This document shows positions 194-12,202 of a stretch of DNA of 64,000 nucleotides, in pieces (position 1 is the stretch's first letter; every line of letters starts with the position of its first letter). Origin of the DNA: Paludisphaera rhizosphaerae (GTDB lineage Bacteria > Planctomycetota > Planctomycetia > Isosphaerales > Isosphaeraceae); NCBI RefSeq assembly GCF_011065895.1, contig NZ_JAALCR010000005.1, positions 1 through 64,000 on the forward strand. The letters are read 5' to 3'. The position numbers and the translations under genes were made by a program. The notes beneath the pieces were generated by a model. The model worked only from the letters and a program-made list of their open reading frames with translations, was not told the origin of the DNA and did no database searches.

Positions 194-2332
194 GTGACGT
201 CGGTTCCTCTTCTGGCCGCGGCCGCCCCTTTGATCTCGATGGGCCCGCTGGACGTGGCGATCATCGCCATCTACTTCGTCGTCGTGCTGGGGATCGGCTT
301 CTATCTGAAGAAGTACGTCAGCACGGGCGAGGACTTCTTCATGGCCGGCCGGAAGATGACGGCCTGGATCGCGGGGTTGAGCTTCATCTCGGCGAACCTC
401 AGTTCGCTGGAGACGATGGGCTGGTCGGCGATGGCCTATCAGTACGGGATGCTGGGCGCGCACGCCTACTGGTTCGGGGCCGTGCCGGCGATCCTGTTCC
501 TGGCCGTGGTGATGATGCCCTTCTATTACATCTGCAACACGCACTCGGTTCCCGGCTATCTGAAGCTGCGGTTCGACGAGAGGACGAGTGCGCTGGCGGG
601 GATCTCGTTCTCGTTCCTGACCGTGCTGGTGAGCGGGGCGAGCATGTTCGCGATGGCGAAGATCCTCAACCTGCTGCTGGGCTGGGACATGAACGTCAGC
701 ATCTGGGTCTCCTCGCTGACGGTGGCCGTGTACGTGACGCTCGGCGGCCTGATCTCGGCGGTCTTCAACGAGGTCTTGCAGTACTTCCTGATCTGGTTCG
801 GGTCGTTGCTGATCCCGATCCTGGGTCTGATCGACGCCGGCGGCTGGAGCGGGCTGGTCCAGAAGATTGAGCGTAACGTGCCGGTGATCCATCCCACGGT
901 GGCCAACGCCAACTTCACGAGCCTCTGGCAGAACCTCGGCTCGTTCGACGCCAACCCGATGGGGGTGGACTGGATCGGCATCGTCTTCGGCCTGGCGGTC
1001 GGGGTGGGGTTCGGCTACTGGTGCACCGACTTCCTGCAGGTGCAGCGGGTGATCGTGGCCAAGGATCTGCGAGCCGCTCAGAACGGGACGATCATCGGCG
1101 CGGCCTTGAAGATGTGCGTGCCATTGATCGTCACCCTGCCAGGACTGCTGGGGCTGGCGGTGCTCTTGCACTCGGACGGATCGCCGATGGTGCTCGTCTC
1201 CGAGGCCGACCCCCGGGCGAACATCACGCATCGGACGTACAACGACGTGCTTCCTTTATTAATGGGAAGATATCTTGGCCCCGGGCTGCTGGGACTTGGC
1301 GTAACGGCGATGATCGCCGGGTTCATGTCGGGGATGGCGGGGAACGCCAGCGCCTTCGCGACGGTCTGGACCTACGACGTTTACCGGACGCTGATCCGCA
1401 AGAACGCCAGCGACGCTCACTATCTGGCGATGGGGCGGTGGTGTTCGCTGCTGGGGATCATGATGTCGGTGGGGACGGCGTACTCGCTGTTCTACTTCTC
1501 GAACATCCTGGAGTTCCTCCAGGTCCTGATCTTCTTCTTCATCGTGCCGCTGTTCGGGGTGGTCATTCTGGGGATGCTCTGGAAGAAGGCGACGCCGACC
1601 GGGGCTTTCGTCGGTTTTCTGACGGCCATCCTGGCGTCGATGGCGATGTGGGCCTTCGTCCACACCTTCCCCGACGGCCACCGACCCTCGCCAACCGCGT
1701 TCCTCGACCCCGGCGCGGTGGTGCGGGTCGAGAAAACGGGCGAAGGCGACGCGGCGGTCATCCATCGCGTGATCGTCGAAAAGGGGACCGTCCGGACGAC
1801 CAACGTCCCCATCGAGGCGCCCGGCGAGACCCCGTGGGCGGCAGGAGACAAGACGCTGGAGAAGGAGGCCGCCGCGCCTTCGAAGGTGACCGAGAAAGAC
1901 AAGACGGTCCCCGTTCGCCTGATCGCGCCCGGCGTCACCCTGGCCGACTCGAATGCCGCCGACAAGTTCGGCGCGGAGGGGGCGGACGTGGTCTTGAAGC
2001 CGGGAGTGCGGGTGGTGGCCTCGGACGTGACGCAGACCTTCAATCCGGCCGAGTTCAACCCCGCTCACGCGAAGTACATCGCCCGGTCCGAGAAAGCCAA
2101 GCCGATGGCGGTCAACGTCTACAGCTCCATGTGGACGCTGCTCATCTGCATGTCGGTCCTGATTGTCGTAAGCCTGTTTACGACCCCCAAGCCCGAATCT
2201 GAGTTGCACAACCTCGTTATGGGCCTCACCCCCCTGCCCGACGACGGACCCGCCCCGTGGTATCGGTCGCCGAAGCTCTGGGCGAGCGTCGTGGCCATCG
2301 TGCTCGTCGCGCTGAACATCATCTTCTGGTGA
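194..2332 (+). CDS. Sodium:solute symporter (SSS) family transporter with a large hydrophilic insert
   Basis: Integral membrane protein of the SSS family, which couples solute uptake to Na+; the substrate cannot be read from sequence. Many hydrophobic segments run from about residue 18 to 490, with family-like stretches such as GEDFFMAGRKM and FISANLSS near the N terminus. I chose GTG at 194 (712 aa) because GGGGAGG lies six bases upstream; GTG 134 and ATG 239 are in frame but have no such site. Between about residues 490 and 640 a hydrophilic block rich in Val, Lys, Glu and Pro separates the last helices, followed by a helix near 645-665 and a final one at the C terminus. This block is not usual for the family and is probably extracytoplasmic. 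Family confident, substrate unknown. Confidence 0.9.
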   Translation: MTSVPLLAAAAPLISMGPLDVAIIAIYFVVVLGIGFYLKKYVSTGEDFFMAGRKMTAWIAGLSFISANLSSLETMGWSAMAYQYGMLGAHAYWFGAVPAILFLAVVMMPFYYICNTHSVPGYLKLRFDERTSALAGISFSFLTVLVSGASMFAMAKILNLLLGWDMNVSIWVSSLTVAVYVTLGGLISAVFNEVLQYFLIWFGSLLIPILGLIDAGGWSGLVQKIERNVPVIHPTVANANFTSLWQNLGSFDANPMGVDWIGIVFGLAVGVGFGYWCTDFLQVQRVIVAKDLRAAQNGTIIGAALKMCVPLIVTLPGLLGLAVLLHSDGSPMVLVSEADPRANITHRTYNDVLPLLMGRYLGPGLLGLGVTAMIAGFMSGMAGNASAFATVWTYDVYRTLIRKNASDAHYLAMGRWCSLLGIMMSVGTAYSLFYFSNILEFLQVLIFFFIVPLFGVVILGMLWKKATPTGAFVGFLTAILASMAMWAFVHTFPDGHRPSPTAFLDPGAVVRVEKTGEGDAAVIHRVIVEKGTVRTTNVPIEAPGETPWAAGDKTLEKEAAAPSKVTEKDKTVPVRLIAPGVTLADSNAADKFGAEGADVVLKPGVRVVASDVTQTFNPAEFNPAHAKYIARSEKAKPMAVNVYSSMWTLLICMSVLIVVSLFTTPKPESELHNLVMGLTPLPDDGPAPWYRSPKLWASVVAIVLVALNIIFW

Positions 2333-2346
2333 CGCCGGCCGATTTC

Positions 2347-2376
2347 GTTGGTTTCGACGATTTCGACGAAACCAAC
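2347..2376 (+). terminator. Hairpin downstream of the symporter gene
   Basis: Ten-base arms GTTGGTTTCG and CGAAACCAAC are perfect inverted repeats around a ten-base loop, starting 14 bases after the symporter stop. No T-run follows, so it is either a weak intrinsic terminator or an mRNA 3'-end stabiliser. Confidence 0.45.
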
Positions 2377-2486
2377 CGCTGCAATCGCCGAATCAGATGG
2401 ATCTAGCGTCCAACCGCCTCTAGACTGGAATCAAGTTCCCAGGGGTCCCGACAAAGCGACTCCGGGACGTAATCGAGGCGAGAGGC

Positions 2487-6950: not shown

Positions 6951-7057
6951 CCTACGTATTGGACGTCGACGCCGGCGTCACTCGTCGGCCTTCCGGCACG
7001 TTTTCCAAAAAACGCGCGGGTGCGCCGCCGCGATCCAATACACCGGAGATTGGCCCC

Positions 7058-7906
7058 ATGGTTACCTTTCTGCTTCTCGTCGCTCCATGGATTCTGAACC
7101 CACCCGAGGAGCGGGAGATGACGGAACGAATGGTCCCCGCCGGCTTCCACGGCAATTACTGGGGACCCGCGGCCACGGAGGCCCGTAAGGATGGTCGTCT
7201 ACCGAAGATCACGCTGACCCCTCAAATGCAGCGCTGGGATGAATGGGGTCGGAAAAACCTCCGGAGCGGCGACATCGTCTTCCGCCTTGGAGACGCTCGG
7301 GTGGCGAAGGGCTGGTTTCCGATGAGCCGGTTCCTGGCCAATGCCAGTAACAGTAAGTTCTCACACACGGGCGTGGTGTCGGTCGAGGACGGCGAGCCGT
7401 TCGTTTACGACACCACGCGGACGAGCGTCGCCCGCCAGCCGTTCTGTGTGTGGATTCTGGACAACGTCGGGCATTTCGGGGTCAAGCGGCTGAAGCCGGA
7501 ATACCGGTCTCAGATCCCGCAAGTGGTCGACTATGTGCACGACGTGTTTGAAAAGCAGGTTCCGTTCGACTACGAGCTAGGGCTGGACGACAAGGCCCTG
7601 TACTGCATCGAGTTGACCGAGAAGGCGTTCCGTCACGCCGGGCTGAAGCTCTCCGACCCGATCCGGCTGGGCGACATGGAACGCGCTGCGGAGTTCCCTG
7701 TGCAGATGATCGGGATCGCGCAGGCCTCGCAGTTCGCGCTCAAGAGCCCGCTGACCTTCGAGCAGGAGGTCTTCTTCCCCGGCAACGAGCGGCACGGGAT
7801 CTGGTCGTCCGACAAGCTCCAGGTCGTCGTTCCGCCCACGTTCACCCCGGGCTATCCGTTCATGGCGGACCACGGCCTGCCCCAGGACGTCGCTTCCGCG
7901 AACTGA
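7058..7906 (+). CDS. YiiX/YebB-like NlpC/P60-fold cysteine hydrolase, exported
   Basis: 282 aa from ATG 7058, preceded by GGAGAT. The N terminus (VTFLLLVAPWIL) looks like a signal peptide. The permuted NlpC/P60 pattern of the YiiX family is readable: SGDIVFR, then NSKFSHTGVV with the His, and later PFDYELGLDDKALYCIELTEKAF with the catalytic Cys. Such proteins are thought to cleave amide or ester bonds in lipids or peptides at the envelope. The convergent downstream gene ends 30 bases away. The frame is open back to 6959, but upstream residues are basic and look non-coding. Confidence 0.8.
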   Translation: MVTFLLLVAPWILNPPEEREMTERMVPAGFHGNYWGPAATEARKDGRLPKITLTPQMQRWDEWGRKNLRSGDIVFRLGDARVAKGWFPMSRFLANASNSKFSHTGVVSVEDGEPFVYDTTRTSVARQPFCVWILDNVGHFGVKRLKPEYRSQIPQVVDYVHDVFEKQVPFDYELGLDDKALYCIELTEKAFRHAGLKLSDPIRLGDMERAAEFPVQMIGIAQASQFALKSPLTFEQEVFFPGNERHGIWSSDKLQVVVPPTFTPGYPFMADHGLPQDVASAN

Positions 7907-7936: not shown

Positions 7937-8557
7937 TCACCCGACGACGGCTTCTTCCCTTGGATTCAGGGCCGAGCCGGGCGCTCGACGTCGAGCCCCC
8001 TGCTCCAGCAGCGCCAGGGCGATCAGTCCCTGGATCGTCAGTTCGGCCCAGGTGTTGATCCTCGTCCCGGCCACGAACCGGAAGAGGAGGGCGTCGACGT
8101 TGTGCCACGACGTCGCCCGGATCGCGTAGAAAGCCAGCAGCAGGAGCACCGGCGCAAGGATGACGAGATCGCGACGGGATTCCCGGCCCGTGGCGAGTCG
8201 ACGGACCATGAGCACGCCCAAAGCGGCTGCGACGATAGAGGCGGCGATGATGCCGACCTGGACCGGGCCTCGAAAGTGATACCACTCCTCGTGGATCGCC
8301 TCTTGCCTCAGCAGGTCCGTCAGCGCCCCTTGGGCGTCCACCAGCTTGCCCGCCCCCAGAACCGCGAAGAGGATCATCAGGCCCGGCCATAGCCACGAGC
8401 CGGAAGGCCTCCGAAGTCCGTCGCGCCTCCAGACCCAGAGGGCCAGGCCGACCAGGACCAGATAGGCCAGCGCCACGAACCAGGGGCGGATGAACGAGCG
8501 ACTCGGCTGATCCACGGCGATCAAGGCGAACGATACCAGCAAGATCGGCGTCCTCAA
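7937..8557 (-). CDS. Polytopic membrane protein of unknown function
   Basis: 206 aa with about four or five hydrophobic segments (near residues 5-15, 26-45, 57-70, 98-118, 130-147) and an Arg-rich C terminus. I recognise no family motif. It is transcribed away from the ubiquitin-like/DUF4132 pair, with about 117 bases between the divergent starts, so shared regulation is possible but unproven. Confidence 0.7.
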   Translation of the reverse strand: MRTPILLVSFALIAVDQPSRSFIRPWFVALAYLVLVGLALWVWRRDGLRRPSGSWLWPGLMILFAVLGAGKLVDAQGALTDLLRQEAIHEEWYHFRGPVQVGIIAASIVAAALGVLMVRRLATGRESRRDLVILAPVLLLLAFYAIRATSWHNVDALLFRFVAGTRINTWAELTIQGLIALALLEQGARRRAPGSALNPREEAVVG

Positions 8558-8674
8558 AGCGAAGTAGGTTCCGTCCAGTCGGCGACCGAGGCCGTCGCGA
8601 ATCGCCCCGGACGGACCTATCCTAGGCTAAATAAGCACCTGGAATCGACTCCAACCCAACCGGGAGGTCCATCC

Positions 8675-9079
8675 ATGGCCGCCACCCTCACCATCCGCGA
8701 CGAAACGCCCGCCGGCGCAGTCTCGGACGCCTGGTCCCTGGAATTCCTGACCGAGACCATCACCGTCCGCGACCTGATCCGCGAGCGCGTCTACCAGGAA
8801 GTCCAGGACTACAACCTCAAGCGCAACTCCACGGCCCCCTACCGAGGCCTCGTCCAACCCGAAGGCCTGGAGAAGGCGCTGAATGCCCCCAAACCGGCCG
8901 ACGCGTTCCGCCCGATCGACTGGAAGAAGCAGTACGAGAAAGCCGTCGAGGCGTTCGAGACCAACCGCATCCTCATCCTCATTGACGACAACCAGGCCGA
9001 ATCCCTCGACGAAACCTTCACCATCGGCCCCGCGACGGCCGTGACCTTTTTGAGGCTGACGCTGCTGGTCGGGGGATGA
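8675..9079 (+). CDS. Small protein with ubiquitin-like (beta-grasp) pattern ending in Gly-Gly
   Basis: 134 aa, start ATG 8675 with GGGAGG seven bases upstream. Seen: a strand-like segment LTIRD (4-9), a second (22-25), TETITVRDLIRERVYQEV (26-43, strand-turn-helix as in ubiquitin), a roughly 50-residue insert, then RILILIDD (98-105), SLDETFTIG, and the terminal VTFLRLTLLVGG with the stop directly after the second Gly. The order and the C terminus resemble ubiquitin (LHLVLRLRGG) and other conjugated or sulfur-carrier beta-grasp proteins. It precedes the DUF4132 gene by 61 bases on the same strand. No E1, E2, JAB or ThiF-like gene lies nearby. The fold assignment is my inference; MoaD/ThiS are much shorter and not a match. 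It may instead be an uncharacterised planctomycete protein with a chance GG end. Confidence 0.6.
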   Translation: MAATLTIRDETPAGAVSDAWSLEFLTETITVRDLIRERVYQEVQDYNLKRNSTAPYRGLVQPEGLEKALNAPKPADAFRPIDWKKQYEKAVEAFETNRILILIDDNQAESLDETFTIGPATAVTFLRLTLLVGG

Positions 9080-9140
9080 TCAAAGGACGGGGAGGTACAG
9101 TCGGTGGATTCCTTCCTTGGCGATTCCGTTGGAGGCGATC

Positions 9141-11720
9141 ATGGGCAGGGCTGACTTGAGATCGCCTGACGAGTTGGACGAGTTGATCGAGACGCTTCTG
9201 AGCGAGAAGCCGACCGGCAAGTACGAAAACAGCTGGTACGGAATCGAACTGGCTGACCTTGAGAGCGGGAAGCGGCTTATCGCCCTGGATCGCGAAGCGC
9301 AGGCCAAGGCCGTCGATCGCCTCGTGGAACGCCTCATCGACGTCGATCAACGCACCTTGATGCTGGCGAAGGCGGCTGCTCGCTCAGCGGTATTCTTGAT
9401 GAGCCCTGAGCAGCGAGAACTCAACGAGGAGCGGAGGCTTCTCCTCCTGGGCCTCGTCGCCCTGATGCGTCGCAGGCTCCCGTTCTCCGAGGAAACGGTC
9501 GTCGCTCTGTTGAACTGGATCGCTCAATACCCCGATCCCGGCCCACATACTCACCCCCTCGGGGCGATTGCGAAGGCCGTCGAGAATCTGAGTGGCGGCT
9601 CTTCGCCGGGAGAGAAGGTCAAGCACGCTGGCCAGGCCGCCGTGAATCGTCTGAAGACGCAGGTCGTACTCAACTCCGATATTCGCAAGCCTCTCGGAGA
9701 GCTGGTGAGACTGATCTCCGACGACGAACCGATCCAGATCGAGCCCGGCGAGGGCTGGTCCGACGCCGCACTCGCCGACCTCGCTTCCATGTCTCCGGAG
9801 CTACGGTCGGCCTGGACCGTCCTGCTCGCGACCTGTCAGCAGGGGGGCACGGGGAGCAAGCCGACGGCGAAGTGGATCAAGTCGGTCAAACCGCTGATCG
9901 AGGCCATCGGTCGGGATGAATTCCGCTCGAAGTTCATCCGTTGGGGAAGACTGGTCGGGAAGAACCCGCCAAGCCTGGACAGGCACCCGTCGGAATGGTC
10001 GTCGCCCTATGACAATCCGGTCATCCCGCCGCACGTCGACCTCTGGAAAGGCCTCGCCTGGTGCGCGGGGCTCGAAGCCGACCGAGAACTCGCAAGAGCG
10101 TTAGGCGCACTGGCGCGTTCGGCCTATGACCTGCGAATCCTCGCGCTGGGGACCGCCGTCGCGACGGCCCTCGGGATGATGCCTGGACTGGACGCGATCG
10201 GCCAACTTGCCGTCTTAAAGCTCAAGGTCAAGCTCCCCGCCGCCCAGAAGCAGATCGAAAAGGCCCTGTCCGCGGCCGCCGAACGCGAGAAGCTTCCACG
10301 AAGCGAGATCGAGGAGTTGGCCGTTCCGACTTACGGCCTGACCGAAGTCGGCCGCCGTGTGGAGACGTTCGGGGATTACACGGCCGAGATCGTCGTCGAG
10401 GGCCCCGACGCTCACCTGCGATGGAGCAAGGCGGGCAAGCCGATCAAGTCGGTCCCGGCCGCGTTGAAGAAGGAGCACGCGGAGGAGGTCAAGGAGTTGC
10501 AGGCCGCCGTCAAGGACGTGGGCAAGATGCTCACCGCCCAGCGCGAGCGGATCGACGGCCTCTTCCTCGCTCGCAAGTCCTGGCCGTTCGCGGCCTGGCG
10601 GGAACGGTATCTGAACCACCCCCTCGTCGGCGGGATCGCGCGAAGGCTGATCTGGGTTTTCGAGGACGACGGCAAGCCCGTCGCCGGCGCGTGGCTGAAG
10701 GACGGGATCGTCGGCGTCGACGACGCGGCGATGGAGGGGCTTGGCGATTCGACGAGGGTCTCGCTCTGGCACCCGATCGACAGGACCGTCGAGGAGGTGT
10801 CGACCTGGCGCGACTGGTTCGACCGCCATCAGGTCCGCCAGCCCTTCAAGCAGGCGTATCGCGAGGTCTACGTCCTCACCGATGCCGAGCGGAACACACG
10901 GGTGTACTCGAATCGGTTCGCCGCCCACATCCTCCGGCAGCACCAGTACCACGCCCTCTGCGCCGCCCGGGGATGGCGGAACCGGCTTCGGATGATGGTG
11001 GACGACTCGTATCCCCCGACCAGCCGCGACCTCCCCGAGTGGGGCCTCCGCGCCGAGTTCTGGGTGGAGGGGATCGGCGACAACATGACCGACTCCGGAG
11101 CGTACGCCTATCTGAACACCGATCAGGTCCGGTTCTACGAGATCGCGGCCCCTCAGGTGGAAGCCCACGCCGGCGGCGGAGGGTACTCGGCGGGTTGGAG
11201 ACAGGCCCAGGCCGAGCCCGTTCCGCTCGACCGCATTCCGCCGCTGGTCCTCAGCGAGATCTTCCGCGACGTCGACCTGTTCGTCGGCGTGGCGAGCGTC
11301 GGCAACGACCCGAACTGGTCCGACGGCGGCCCCCAGGGACGCCACGTCGACTACTGGCAGAGCTACAGCTTCGGCGACCTCAACGCCAACGGCAAGACCC
11401 GCAAGGATGTGCTGGAGCGCTTGATCCCTCGGCTGAAGATCGCGTCCCGATGCTCGTTCAGCGACAAGTTCCTGGTCGTCCGCGGCGACATCCGGACCTA
11501 CAAGATCCACCTGGGGAGCGGCAACATCCTGATGGAACCGAACGACCAGTACCTCTGCATCGTCCCCAAACGAAGCACGCCCGAACCCCAGGGCCAGGGC
11601 GTCTTCCTCCCCTTCGAAGGAGACAACGTCCTCTCCATCATTCTCAGCAAAGCCTTGATGCTCGCCGATGACAAGAAGATCACCGACGCCACCATCACCA
11701 GCCAGATCGGCCGGAAATGA
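9141..11720 (+). CDS. DUF4132-type large protein (MolR/YehI-like)
   Basis: 859 aa, soluble. ATG 9141 is preceded by GGAGG five bases upstream; TTG 9117 is in frame but has no such site. Residues 1-400 look helical; the centre (about 420-620) has the DUF4132-like block with YGLTEVGRRVETFGDY, a run around LARKSWPFAAWRERY, then LIWVFEDDGKPVAGAW and SLWHPIDRTVEEV. The C-terminal third contains DVDLFVGVASVGNDPNW, SYSFGDLNANGKTRKDV and YKIHLGSGNI, as in the domain that usually follows DUF4132. Function unknown; relatives occur in multi-gene loci with MoxR ATPases and vWA proteins, none of which is present here. Its likely partner is the upstream GG-ending protein. Confidence 0.75.
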   Translation: MGRADLRSPDELDELIETLLSEKPTGKYENSWYGIELADLESGKRLIALDREAQAKAVDRLVERLIDVDQRTLMLAKAAARSAVFLMSPEQRELNEERRLLLLGLVALMRRRLPFSEETVVALLNWIAQYPDPGPHTHPLGAIAKAVENLSGGSSPGEKVKHAGQAAVNRLKTQVVLNSDIRKPLGELVRLISDDEPIQIEPGEGWSDAALADLASMSPELRSAWTVLLATCQQGGTGSKPTAKWIKSVKPLIEAIGRDEFRSKFIRWGRLVGKNPPSLDRHPSEWSSPYDNPVIPPHVDLWKGLAWCAGLEADRELARALGALARSAYDLRILALGTAVATALGMMPGLDAIGQLAVLKLKVKLPAAQKQIEKALSAAAEREKLPRSEIEELAVPTYGLTEVGRRVETFGDYTAEIVVEGPDAHLRWSKAGKPIKSVPAALKKEHAEEVKELQAAVKDVGKMLTAQRERIDGLFLARKSWPFAAWRERYLNHPLVGGIARRLIWVFEDDGKPVAGAWLKDGIVGVDDAAMEGLGDSTRVSLWHPIDRTVEEVSTWRDWFDRHQVRQPFKQAYREVYVLTDAERNTRVYSNRFAAHILRQHQYHALCAARGWRNRLRMMVDDSYPPTSRDLPEWGLRAEFWVEGIGDNMTDSGAYAYLNTDQVRFYEIAAPQVEAHAGGGGYSAGWRQAQAEPVPLDRIPPLVLSEIFRDVDLFVGVASVGNDPNWSDGGPQGRHVDYWQSYSFGDLNANGKTRKDVLERLIPRLKIASRCSFSDKFLVVRGDIRTYKIHLGSGNILMEPNDQYLCIVPKRSTPEPQGQGVFLPFEGDNVLSIILSKALMLADDKKITDATITSQIGRK

Positions 11721-11740: not shown

Positions 11741-12202
11741 TCATTCATTCTCAACGACGATCGCATCTCCGACGCGGATCTCCCCCCCTTCGAGCACGTC
11801 GGCGCCGATCCCGCAACGGCGGCCGAGGTGCTTGAAGATCGCGACCTTCCCGGAGGTCTGCACGATGTGCATGCACGGCGGCCAGGGCTTGCGGCCGTAC
11901 AGGACCACCCGTTCGCCGATCCGAAAGCGTCGACCAACCAGAGAGGTCAGGTCGACCCCGAGCGTGACGAGGTTCCGCCGCAGGTCCATCGGCTCCAACC
12001 CCTCGCCGCCCGGCGCATCGAAGGGCTCGCGTTCGATGAGCGTCACCTGGGCGTCCCACTCGGCCATCCCGGAATAGAAGCCCTGGCCCGTCGCATAGCG
12101 GTCGCCGACGATCCCGCGACCTGCCAGCACCTCGACCGCCGGGTGGTCGCCCACGGGCGAGCCGCTGGCTGGGGATGTGAGAATCGCGACGATCCGGCCC
12201 AT
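11741..12202 (-). CDS. MOSC domain protein
   Basis: 153 aa, essentially a lone MOSC (molybdenum-cofactor sulfurase C-terminal) domain, a beta-barrel thought to carry sulfur or bind molybdenum cofactor. Readable pattern: GIVGDRYATGQGFYSG near residues 30-45, QVTLIERE, RRNLVTLGVDL, and PPCMHI with the family-conserved Cys. It ends 20 bases from the end of the convergent DUF4132 gene and lies 69 bases downstream of the spermidine-synthase-like gene on the same strand. YiiM-type detoxification of N-hydroxylated compounds is one possible role. Confidence 0.85.
   Translation of the reverse strand: MGRIVAILTSPASGSPVGDHPAVEVLAGRGIVGDRYATGQGFYSGMAEWDAQVTLIEREPFDAPGGEGLEPMDLRRNLVTLGVDLTSLVGRRFRIGERVVLYGRKPWPPCMHIVQTSGKVAIFKHLGRRCGIGADVLEGGEIRVGDAIVVENE

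Follow-up and report, generated by a model that had tools for sequence, protein, structure and literature searches.

The window, by which we mean the whole 64,000-nucleotide stretch of DNA analyzed here (contig C5, positions 1 to 64000), carries two co-directional genes (Table 1). The upstream one is a small open reading frame that begins with ATG and encodes a protein ending in LLVGG before a TGA stop. The downstream one encodes a giant protein, for which the ATG at 9141 is the most likely start, giving 859 aa and a gap of 61 bases (9080-9140); the frame is also open from an alternative TTG at 9117. The initial annotation had described such a two-gene unit, with a gap of this length and a ribosome binding site for each gene, and both reading frames and both Shine-Dalgarno-like runs are indeed present.

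Table 1. Coordinates of the two-gene unit and its features within the window.
Feature	Position	Strand	Basis
Shine-Dalgarno-like GGGAGGT ahead of small gene	8662..8668	+	Direct reading of sequence
Gene for predicted ubiquitin-fold protein, 134 aa, ending Leu-Val-Gly-Gly	8675..9079	+	ORF list and AlphaFold2 model
Tail codons, residues 128-134 of small protein (GG codons, 9071-9076)	9056..9076	+	Conservation, pLDDT
Shine-Dalgarno-like GGAGG ahead of large gene	9131..9135	+	Direct reading of sequence
Giant partner, 859 aa, DUF4132 and DUF7737	9141..11720	+	ORF list, Pfam
Predicted alpha-solenoid half of partner (limits approximate, transferred from L023 model)	9159..10304	+	Model helices 147-528, HEAT/ARM-type chain matches
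DUF4132 domain of partner	10434..10976	+	Pfam
DUF7737 domain of partner	11394..11708	+	Pfam
TGC codon of Cys806, the residue covarying with the diglycine	11556..11558	+	Covariation; codon read from sequence

The small protein has a predicted ubiquitin fold and a conserved tail

No Pfam or NCBIfam family matched the small protein of the window, and a PDB sequence search with its family returned nothing significant, the single match having an E value of 0.38. Pfam matches seen within the family were set aside, as each occurred in just one or two of 28 members. The AlphaFold2 model (mean pLDDT, 77.7; pTM, 0.73) predicts a ubiquitin (beta-grasp) fold. In a structure search, ubiquitin chains matched this model at about 2 A over 72-75 residues with a Z of about 7, which the search tool grades as middling, and nearly all of the 50 matches listed appear to be ubiquitin-fold chains. 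The label "ubiquitin-like," which began as a guess, is thus backed by a predicted model and its structural matches, and we refer to the protein as the Ubl.

Residues 131-134 have a pLDDT below 50. The mean frequency of the commonest residue is nevertheless 0.88 in the tail versus 0.65 across residues 1-127 (27 rows), so that the tail is flexible in prediction yet highly conserved. All 27 close-branch sequences, with pairwise identities down to 36%, end in GG followed by a stop. The same ending is found in the window and at 56 of 68 loci; the 12 that lack it all belong to the type-2 branch.

The giant partner combines DUF4132 with DUF7737

The large protein, annotated initially as DUF4132 type, matches that Pfam family (PF13569) at 177 bits and DUF7737 (PF24879) at 141.4 bits, against a curated cutoff of 27 in both cases; the Pfam search found no WGR domain on it, and a PDB sequence search gave no match. 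An NCBIfam match to AmcH (adenylate-forming; E value, 5e-4) would have suggested self-adenylation, but it was repeated in none of seven other Ubl-linked partners and was set aside, as was a Pfam DUF7067 match that did not recur in seven relatives. Neither window protein matched a PADLOC anti-phage model at an E value of 0.1.

For cofolding, the small and large proteins of locus L023 were modeled as one fused chain, with the stop read as Gly and 49 alignment rows. Both the Ubl and its partner are well folded in this model (pTM, 0.61); the tail is not docked, and the tail and linker (residues 130-145) have a pLDDT below 50, so the model weighs neither way on docking. The matches listed by Foldseek for this model are mostly helical-repeat chains. 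A second structure comparison (VIA) gave matches that chiefly span residues 133-526; they include HEAT/ARM-type chains at Z values of 8 to 11, which, the tool cautions, may reflect merely a common helical arrangement.

The two genes are linked across four phyla

A same-strand DUF4132 gene directly adjoins the small gene at 64 of 68 loci (63 of 67 without one duplicate), and these small-gene loci span four phyla. Three of the exceptions end at a contig edge and one is truly alone. Gene order is reversed in L024, L026, L028, and L029, which form one clade, and in L049, with linkage retained. IMG/VR viral contigs yielded no relative, and no new locus emerged from the classes of G035 (3 genomes) and G265 (20 genomes).

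The association also holds when viewed from the partner. Across 392 genomes, DUF7737 was matched at full length 23 times, and 21 of these matches have a Ubl. A scan for DUF4132 gave 52 places, of which 11 weaker ones were left out. The small gene accompanies none of the 18 examined DUF4132 places that lack DUF7737. Thirteen rows without DUF7737 branch off separately in the DUF4132 tree (support, 97/93), and DUF4132 proteins as a whole comprise more than one branch. The neighbors at the four of these 18 places checked by Pfam are MoxR-type AAA, DUF5682, and/or VWA genes, and the DUF4132 protein carries WGR at two of the four. We take these to be the MolR/YehI-type systems, which share the DUF4132 domain with the window unit but differ in lacking DUF7737, in their other partners, and in having no Ubl at any of the 18 places. 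The window unit, for its part, has no recurrent third family beside the pair: of the other ORF families nearby, none was seen at more than 6 further loci among the 33. The gene for a C92 papain-like amidase upstream (6959-7906), which might have prompted a cysteine-peptidase reading, recurs in one other locus only, and that reading was dropped.

The initial annotation is therefore borne out in naming the small gene as the sole companion, and neither outcome that would have spoken against the pairing, genes not adjacent in relatives or DUF4132 always accompanied by other partners without the small gene, was found. Together, the 27 of 27 diglycine endings in the close branch and the 64 of 68 linked loci indicate that the pairing is not chance. 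The idea that the genes are hitchhiking neighbors without joint function has in its favor only that operons in general move together, and we regard it as extremely improbable given linkage across four phyla that survives reversal in two lineages, the near-constant presence of a Ubl beside DUF7737, and the residue-level covariation described below.

The diglycine covaries with a cysteine of the partner

Of 53 partners of GG-ending proteins, 52 carry Cys at residue 806, as does none of the 9 partners of proteins without GG. Among 560 columns, this one tracks the GG state best, agreeing in 61 of 62 rows (runner-up, 57), and within the type-2 branch it agrees in 17 of 18 (runner-up, 15). The 62 pairs exclude L179, a duplicate of L034, and L052, which has no DUF4132; the residue is unreadable at contig ends in L025, L160, L164, and L166. 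L181 is counted by its Cys-bearing partner only; a second DUF4132-DUF7737 ORF there, across the Ubl from that partner, has Pro at 806.

In a phylogeny-aware test, residue 806 gave a likelihood ratio of 22.4 (P = 1.7e-4), with 11.7 for the next of 24 tested columns. Along the 61-row tree, the GG label shifts 5 times, and well-supported branches force 3 of these shifts, which puts the number of switches in the GG state at three or more; this tree is without L091, L095, and L100, and L091 joined the 62-row count once its Ubl end had been found. Corrected for 560 columns, P would be about 0.1, and later predictions accordingly carry weight. The rule holds in all 24 held-out pairs; 6 of them, all type-2 pairs, are informative, and one of the 24 duplicates L034. 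Informative predictions total seven, six of which agree. The seventh, G035, has Val at 806, so its Ubl was expected to lack GG; the visible C terminus, about 16 residues at a contig start, ends in AGG.

This covariation suggests acyl (thioester-type) chemistry between the tail and the partner, and it lends comparative support to the earlier proposal of a modifier and its ligase, to which the fused-chain fold, with its undocked tail, adds nothing. A different explanation would make the Ubl a noncovalent regulatory or assembly subunit whose tail sits in a pocket walled by residue 806, so that the two sites covary by packing and no acyl chemistry takes place. Non-GG pairs stay tight, and 10 of 12 non-GG small proteins keep LAG, their tail being LAGA; a tail still constrained when the Cys is gone points to a noncovalent role too. 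The residues that replace Cys806, however, are F, E, A, L, and V, which differ in size and charge as would be expected if a constraint had been lifted, and not if packing were matched. We rate a purely noncovalent subunit as a serious contender that is nonetheless on the unlikely side.

No dedicated activation machinery accompanies the pair

The window holds no E1, E2, or JAB gene, as the initial annotation had noted: Pfam searches of its own genome placed ThiF matches on contigs C2 and C21 and Prok-JAB matches on C6 and C21, and Prok-E2_B nowhere. Among 20 Ubl genomes, ThiF-family genes occur in all, Prok-JAB in 13, and Prok-E2_B in 1. The missing dedicated E1 and these E2 and JAB counts would suit a noncovalent subunit; if the Ubl is activated, activation would come from a housekeeping MoeB/ThiF-type E1. 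MoaD, ThiS, SAMP, and Urm1 are E2-less Ubls served by MoeB/ThiF-type E1s. The window Ubl resembles them in its predicted beta-grasp fold, C-terminal GG, and putative E1 encoded elsewhere. It differs in its length of 134 aa, in a long insert between the helix and the third strand, and in having a dedicated giant partner where MoaD and ThiS have MoaE/ThiG-type enzymes.

The likeness raises the question of whether the Ubl is itself a sulfur carrier, its GG tail thiocarboxylated by a MoeB/ThiF enzyme and the sulfur handed to a reaction of the DUF4132-DUF7737 protein, with Cys806 as a persulfide or acyl-disulfide partner. The fold matches include small subunits of molybdopterin synthase as well as SAMP1, the Deinococcus radiodurans member has been modeled independently as MoaD/SAMP1-like (PMC9650054), ThiF-family genes are universal in the Ubl genomes, and the GG-Cys pair is compatible with acyl-disulfide chemistry. 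On the other hand, the neighborhood of the pair has no conserved biosynthetic gene, the ThiS Pfam model reaches at best an E value of 0.16 (in 2 of 28 members of the small family), and moeA and moeB are reported to be unchanged on DdrO depletion (PMC8533742). We consider a sulfur carrier unlikely.

The Deinococcus pair is reported as a DdrO target

The homologous pair in D. radiodurans is drA0165-drA0166, whose genes lie 2 bases apart; DRA0165 ends in AGG, and DRA0166 has a DUF5724-DUF4132-DUF7737 architecture with the Cys. DRA0165 has been published as stress peptide SEP068184 and described as Deinococcus-only and without an RDRM (PMC9650054). Its family is not restricted in this way, having members in four phyla, and the RDRM as printed in PMC8533742 was found 82 bases upstream of drA0165. 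A DdrO-type box lies upstream in four of four Deinococcus. The operon is reported to be a target of DdrO with no function assigned to it (PMC8533742), and the published accounts appear to treat peptide and operon separately (PMC9650054, PMC8533742).

Mitomycin C is reported to induce DRA0166 in an IrrE-dependent manner (PMC8533742), and gamma rays and H2O2 to raise DRA0165, whose knockout is more H2O2 resistant (PMC9650054). Coimmunoprecipitation in D. radiodurans gave 157 proteins common to N- and C-terminally tagged SEP068184 (PMC9650054), as noncovalent binding would give. The window unit differs from this pair in its shorter partner and in having no DdrO box within the 250 bases upstream of its first gene, so a stress role for the planctomycete unit would follow by homology only.

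A possible two-protein ubiquitin-like module

Taken together, we give about an even chance to a dedicated two-protein module in which a stress-linked Ubl has its own thioester partner and is activated in trans by a housekeeping MoeB/ThiF-type E1. The flexible C-terminal tail of the Ubl would contact a site within the DUF7737 domain. Where that tail ends in GG, as it does in most members, Cys806 would accept or hold the terminal glycine carboxylate as an acyl (thioester-type) intermediate. The partner might then serve as an E2/E3-like carrier, acting either on a target or on itself, and the Deinococcus module would belong to the DNA damage response. Against this reading weigh the GG tail of G035, the Pro-bearing second ORF of L181, and G320, in which Cys is present at 806 and no Ubl was found. 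A bolder version is unlikely in our estimation: a conjugation system of two proteins that has no dedicated genes for E1, E2, E3, or a peptidase, in which DUF4132-DUF7737 proteins would be a new class of Ubl-transferring enzyme with Cys806 as the thioester site, and the Ubl would mark, or be loaded on, proteins in DNA damage and oxidative stress.

Bil and related bacterial ubiquitin-like operons, like the window unit, place a ubiquitin-fold protein and possible conjugating proteins in one operon, but those described carry E1, E2, and JAB genes (PMC11354881, PMC7159879), whereas the window has no ThiF, Prok-E2_B, or Prok-JAB gene and the pair has no recurrent third gene.

DUF4132 proteins are little studied, with three papers naming the domain in the open-access literature searched. 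The present analysis sets one branch of them apart, identifies for it a constant partner and a candidate active-site cysteine, and proposes a chemistry that can be tested; it also ties a D. radiodurans stress peptide to a four-phylum family and to its own operon partner. That Cys806 is mostly present only with a glycine tail hints at a stripped-down ubiquitin-like chemistry in stress responses; if the acyl link is real, bacterial ubiquitin-like chemistry would exist as a two-gene unit, far smaller than the known operons.

The two-gene unit and its predicted folds

The initial annotation described a co-directional pair with a 61-base gap in which each gene has its own ribosome binding site. Both open reading frames (ORFs) were recovered with this spacing and direction, and a Shine-Dalgarno-like run precedes each. 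The small protein (Ubl) matched no family in Pfam or NCBIfam, and its gene is single-copy in its own genome, where the sole other match has an E value of 1.6. Its partner carries DUF4132 at residues 432-612 and DUF7737 at 752-856 (Pfam). Directly 3' of the pair lies a convergent gene for a MOSC-domain protein; a molybdenum theme is attached also to MolR. On the 5' side is a permuted papain-like amidase, which recurs in one other locus.

Coordinates of the gene pair, its neighbors and features of other loci
Feature	Locus	Position (strand)	Remark
Small ORF (Ubl)	window	8675-9079 (+)	134 aa, ends LLVGG-stop
Large gene (partner)	window	9141-11720 (+)	859 aa, ATG start
MOSC-domain protein	window	11741-12202 (-)	E 1.9e-9
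C92 (YaeF/YiiX) family amidase	window	6959-7906 (+)	
Second DUF4132-DUF7737 ORF	L181, genome G553	8125-9588 (-)	
Ubl with SGRLW end	L106, Bacteroides finegoldii plasmid	7980-8399	
GG-ending small-protein relative	L052, genome G058	1834-2424 (+)	43.6 bits
DUF4132 domain protein	L102	8043-8993	306-316 aa in L102 and L103
DUF4132 domain protein	L103	7755-8675	
Short DUF7737 match	G291:C1	2673940-2674050	open frame 57 aa
Short DUF7737 match	G017:C86	18132-18206	open frame 29 aa

The proposal that the small protein is ubiquitin-like is supported by its predicted structure. The AlphaFold2 model (28 rows; mean pLDDT 77.7, pTM 0.73) has strands at 3-10 and 20-24, a helix at 31-48, an insert, a helix at 83-95, strands at 99-103, 114-116 and 122-127, and a disordered end. 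The top Foldseek rows were mainly ubiquitin-fold chains, at weak E values of 0.01 and up, and included superantigen-like chains, whose C-terminal domain is a beta-grasp. At Z 6.7-8.0, VIA matched the model to ISG15, SAMP1, molybdopterin-synthase small subunits and ubiquitin, the last at about 2 A across 72-75 residues. The Deinococcus radiodurans Ubl has been modeled by others as molybdopterin-synthase-small-subunit- and SAMP1-like (PMC9650054, in excerpt).

The pair is conserved across four phyla

A single-sequence search of 392 Planctomycetota genomes identified the small protein in 19, at 20 places; a profile search added G079, and G035 was added through the last residues of its Ubl, located at a contig end. 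A species-genome scan contributed 13 further loci, planctomycetes throughout, and plasmid records contributed Novosphingobium humi, four Deinococcus and Bacteroides finegoldii. A class search was positive in 28 of 337 genomes and yielded 27 previously unused places, one duplicating locus L034. The total is 68 loci (67 without the duplicate) in four phyla. Distribution is patchy within one genus (g4), where four of the genomes listed carry the small gene and at least four lack it.

A DUF4132 gene immediately adjoins the Ubl gene, on the same strand, in 64 of the 68 loci; the adjacency seen in the window is kept in relatives. Contig ends interrupt three of the other loci (L025, L160 and L164), and the fourth, L052, lacks DUF4132. 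The small-protein relative in L052 adjoins a nucleotidyltransferase (NTP_transf_5), and its genome has no DUF4132 match. Gene order is sometimes swapped, with the Ubl downstream in a single clade (L024, L026, L028 and L029; support 100/100) and in L049. In one comparison set, the distance from the Ubl stop to the partner's first possible start is -11 to +89 bases in 26 of 27 Ubl-upstream loci; in the 27th (L043), as in L172, the partner reads as two ORFs. When the ORFs of 33 loci were compared all against all, no additional family turned up around the pair in more than six other loci, nor did a third family recur next to it, consistent with the Ubl being the DUF4132 protein's sole companion, as first proposed.

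The same annotation had allowed that DUF4132 might always be linked to other partners; instead, 21 of the 23 full-length DUF7737 matches in the 392 genomes adjoin a Ubl, and in the other two genomes (G214 and G320) no Ubl was found, locally or genome-wide. DUF4132 occurs at 52 places in these genomes. The 41 examined, some on short contigs, comprise 21 with the Ubl, the G214 and G320 places, and 18 without DUF7737 or Ubl. Four of the loci lacking both, checked by Pfam, have MoxR-type AAA, DUF5682 and/or VWA neighbors, and in two of them the DUF4132 protein carries WGR. In a DUF4132-domain tree of 52 rows, 27 Ubl-linked rows including the window form one branch (98/98), 13 unlinked rows a separate branch (97/93), and the type-2 rows, which have longer partners, a third with a few odd ones. 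Loci L102 and L103 show a third DUF4132 architecture, with a domain protein beside a protein of ~1,690 aa, which in L103 matched no Pfam family. Two short DUF7737 matches (G291 and G017) look as if they were decayed copies of the unit.

Stress regulation in Deinococcus

The RDRM (DdrO box) printed for DRA0165, in a putative operon (PMC8533742, in excerpt), was found 82 bases before the D. radiodurans small gene, and each of the four Deinococcus has an equivalent box, at a distance of 72-92 bases upstream. Across 57.5 kb of Deinococcus loci, nothing but three of those four boxes comes within one mismatch of the RDRM. According to the same excerpts, DdrO depletion derepresses the putative DRA0165-DRA0166 operon, and mitomycin C raises DRA0166 protein in an IrrE-dependent manner. 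Excerpts of PMC9650054 report that gamma rays and H2O2 raise the level of SEP068184 (DR_A0165), that its knockout has greater H2O2 resistance, that it binds Trx1, and that 157 proteins coimmunoprecipitate with tags at either end. That text also claims SEP068184 to be Deinococcus-only and without an RDRM; the relatives on N. humi and B. finegoldii plasmids contradict the former and the boxes in four Deinococcus, including that upstream of drA0165, the latter.

Among the open-access papers searched, we found no paper joining both proteins as one Ubl system, none naming DUF7737 or DUF5724, and, beyond PMC8533742 and PMC9650054, no title bearing on DRA0165/DRA0166. Three papers there name DUF4132; its co-mention with ubiquitin concerns Leptospira leucine-rich repeat proteins.

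The diglycine tail and Cys806 of the partner vary together

Among 27 close relatives, the mean frequency of the commonest residue is 0.88 in residues 128-134 versus 0.65 in 1-127, and L128, L131, G133 and G134 are invariant. That the tail is conserved although its end is predicted to be disordered argues for contact or reaction. A GG-stop ends the Ubl in 56 of 68 loci (55 without the duplicate); the 12 other ends (10 LAGA, one SG and one SGRLW) all fall in the type-2 branch. The SGRLW end of L106 could be an unprocessed precursor. In that locus, partner residue 806 is Ala, and immediately upstream there is a gene for a rhomboid protease.

When partners of GG Ubls (34) were compared with those of non-GG Ubls (4), one column split them perfectly: Cys806, in the YLCIV motif of DUF7737. 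This rule was fixed before new type-2 genomes were sought as a test. The 24 new pairs that could be read comprise 19 GG partners, all with Cys, and five non-GG partners, with Leu, Glu, Glu, Val and Glu; 18 of these pairs are type 1 and carry little information, and one is a duplicate. The G035 pair breaks the rule, with a GG tail and Val. In L181, the Ubl has a further DUF4132-DUF7737 ORF on its other, upstream flank, with Pro at this position. Overall, Cys806 is present in 52 of 53 GG partners and 0 of 9 non-GG partners. Column 806 is the best of 560 across all rows (61/62; runner-up, 57) and also within type 2 (17/18; runner-up, 15).

A 61-row tree computed with column 806 removed implies five changes of the GG label, and well-supported branches force three of these. 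For example, L048 (GG, Cys) neighbors L050/L051 (AGA, Phe), and L053 (GG, Cys) neighbors L161 (AGA, Leu). Dependent versus independent evolution gave a likelihood ratio of 22.4 for column 806 (p 1.7e-4, 4 d.f.), the runner-up among 24 columns tested reaching 11.7; correction for 560 columns brings p to ~0.1, which makes the later predictions important. The residues replacing Cys806 are mutually unlike, which looks like release from constraint. Outside this residue the motif (Y-x-[IV]-H-L-G-S) is largely kept, so DUF7737 is not in decay.

Possible chemistry of the pair

All 20 Ubl genomes searched have ThiF-family genes, whereas 13 have Prok-JAB and one has Prok-E2_B. All matches to these families in the window's own genome lie on other contigs, in keeping with the first reading that the window holds no E1, E2 or JAB gene. 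We infer that the GG, if activated at all, would find its natural candidate in a housekeeping MoeB/ThiF-type enzyme.

Co-folding, as initially advised, gave a fused-chain model of 998 residues (mean pLDDT 86.3, pTM 0.61) in which one half of the partner is an alpha-solenoid and the other is alpha/beta; the Ubl tail and linker remained disordered. We propose that the Ubl would dock on its partner and present its tail to DUF7737 and that, in pairs having both GG and Cys, the tail and Cys806 would meet chemically. Sulfur transfer by the Ubl seems improbable as the function of the pair; a purely non-covalent subunit role is somewhat less so, while still unlikely. We give an even chance to acyl transfer in which the partner is E2/E3-like. 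The LAGA lineages suggest docking retained without chemistry.
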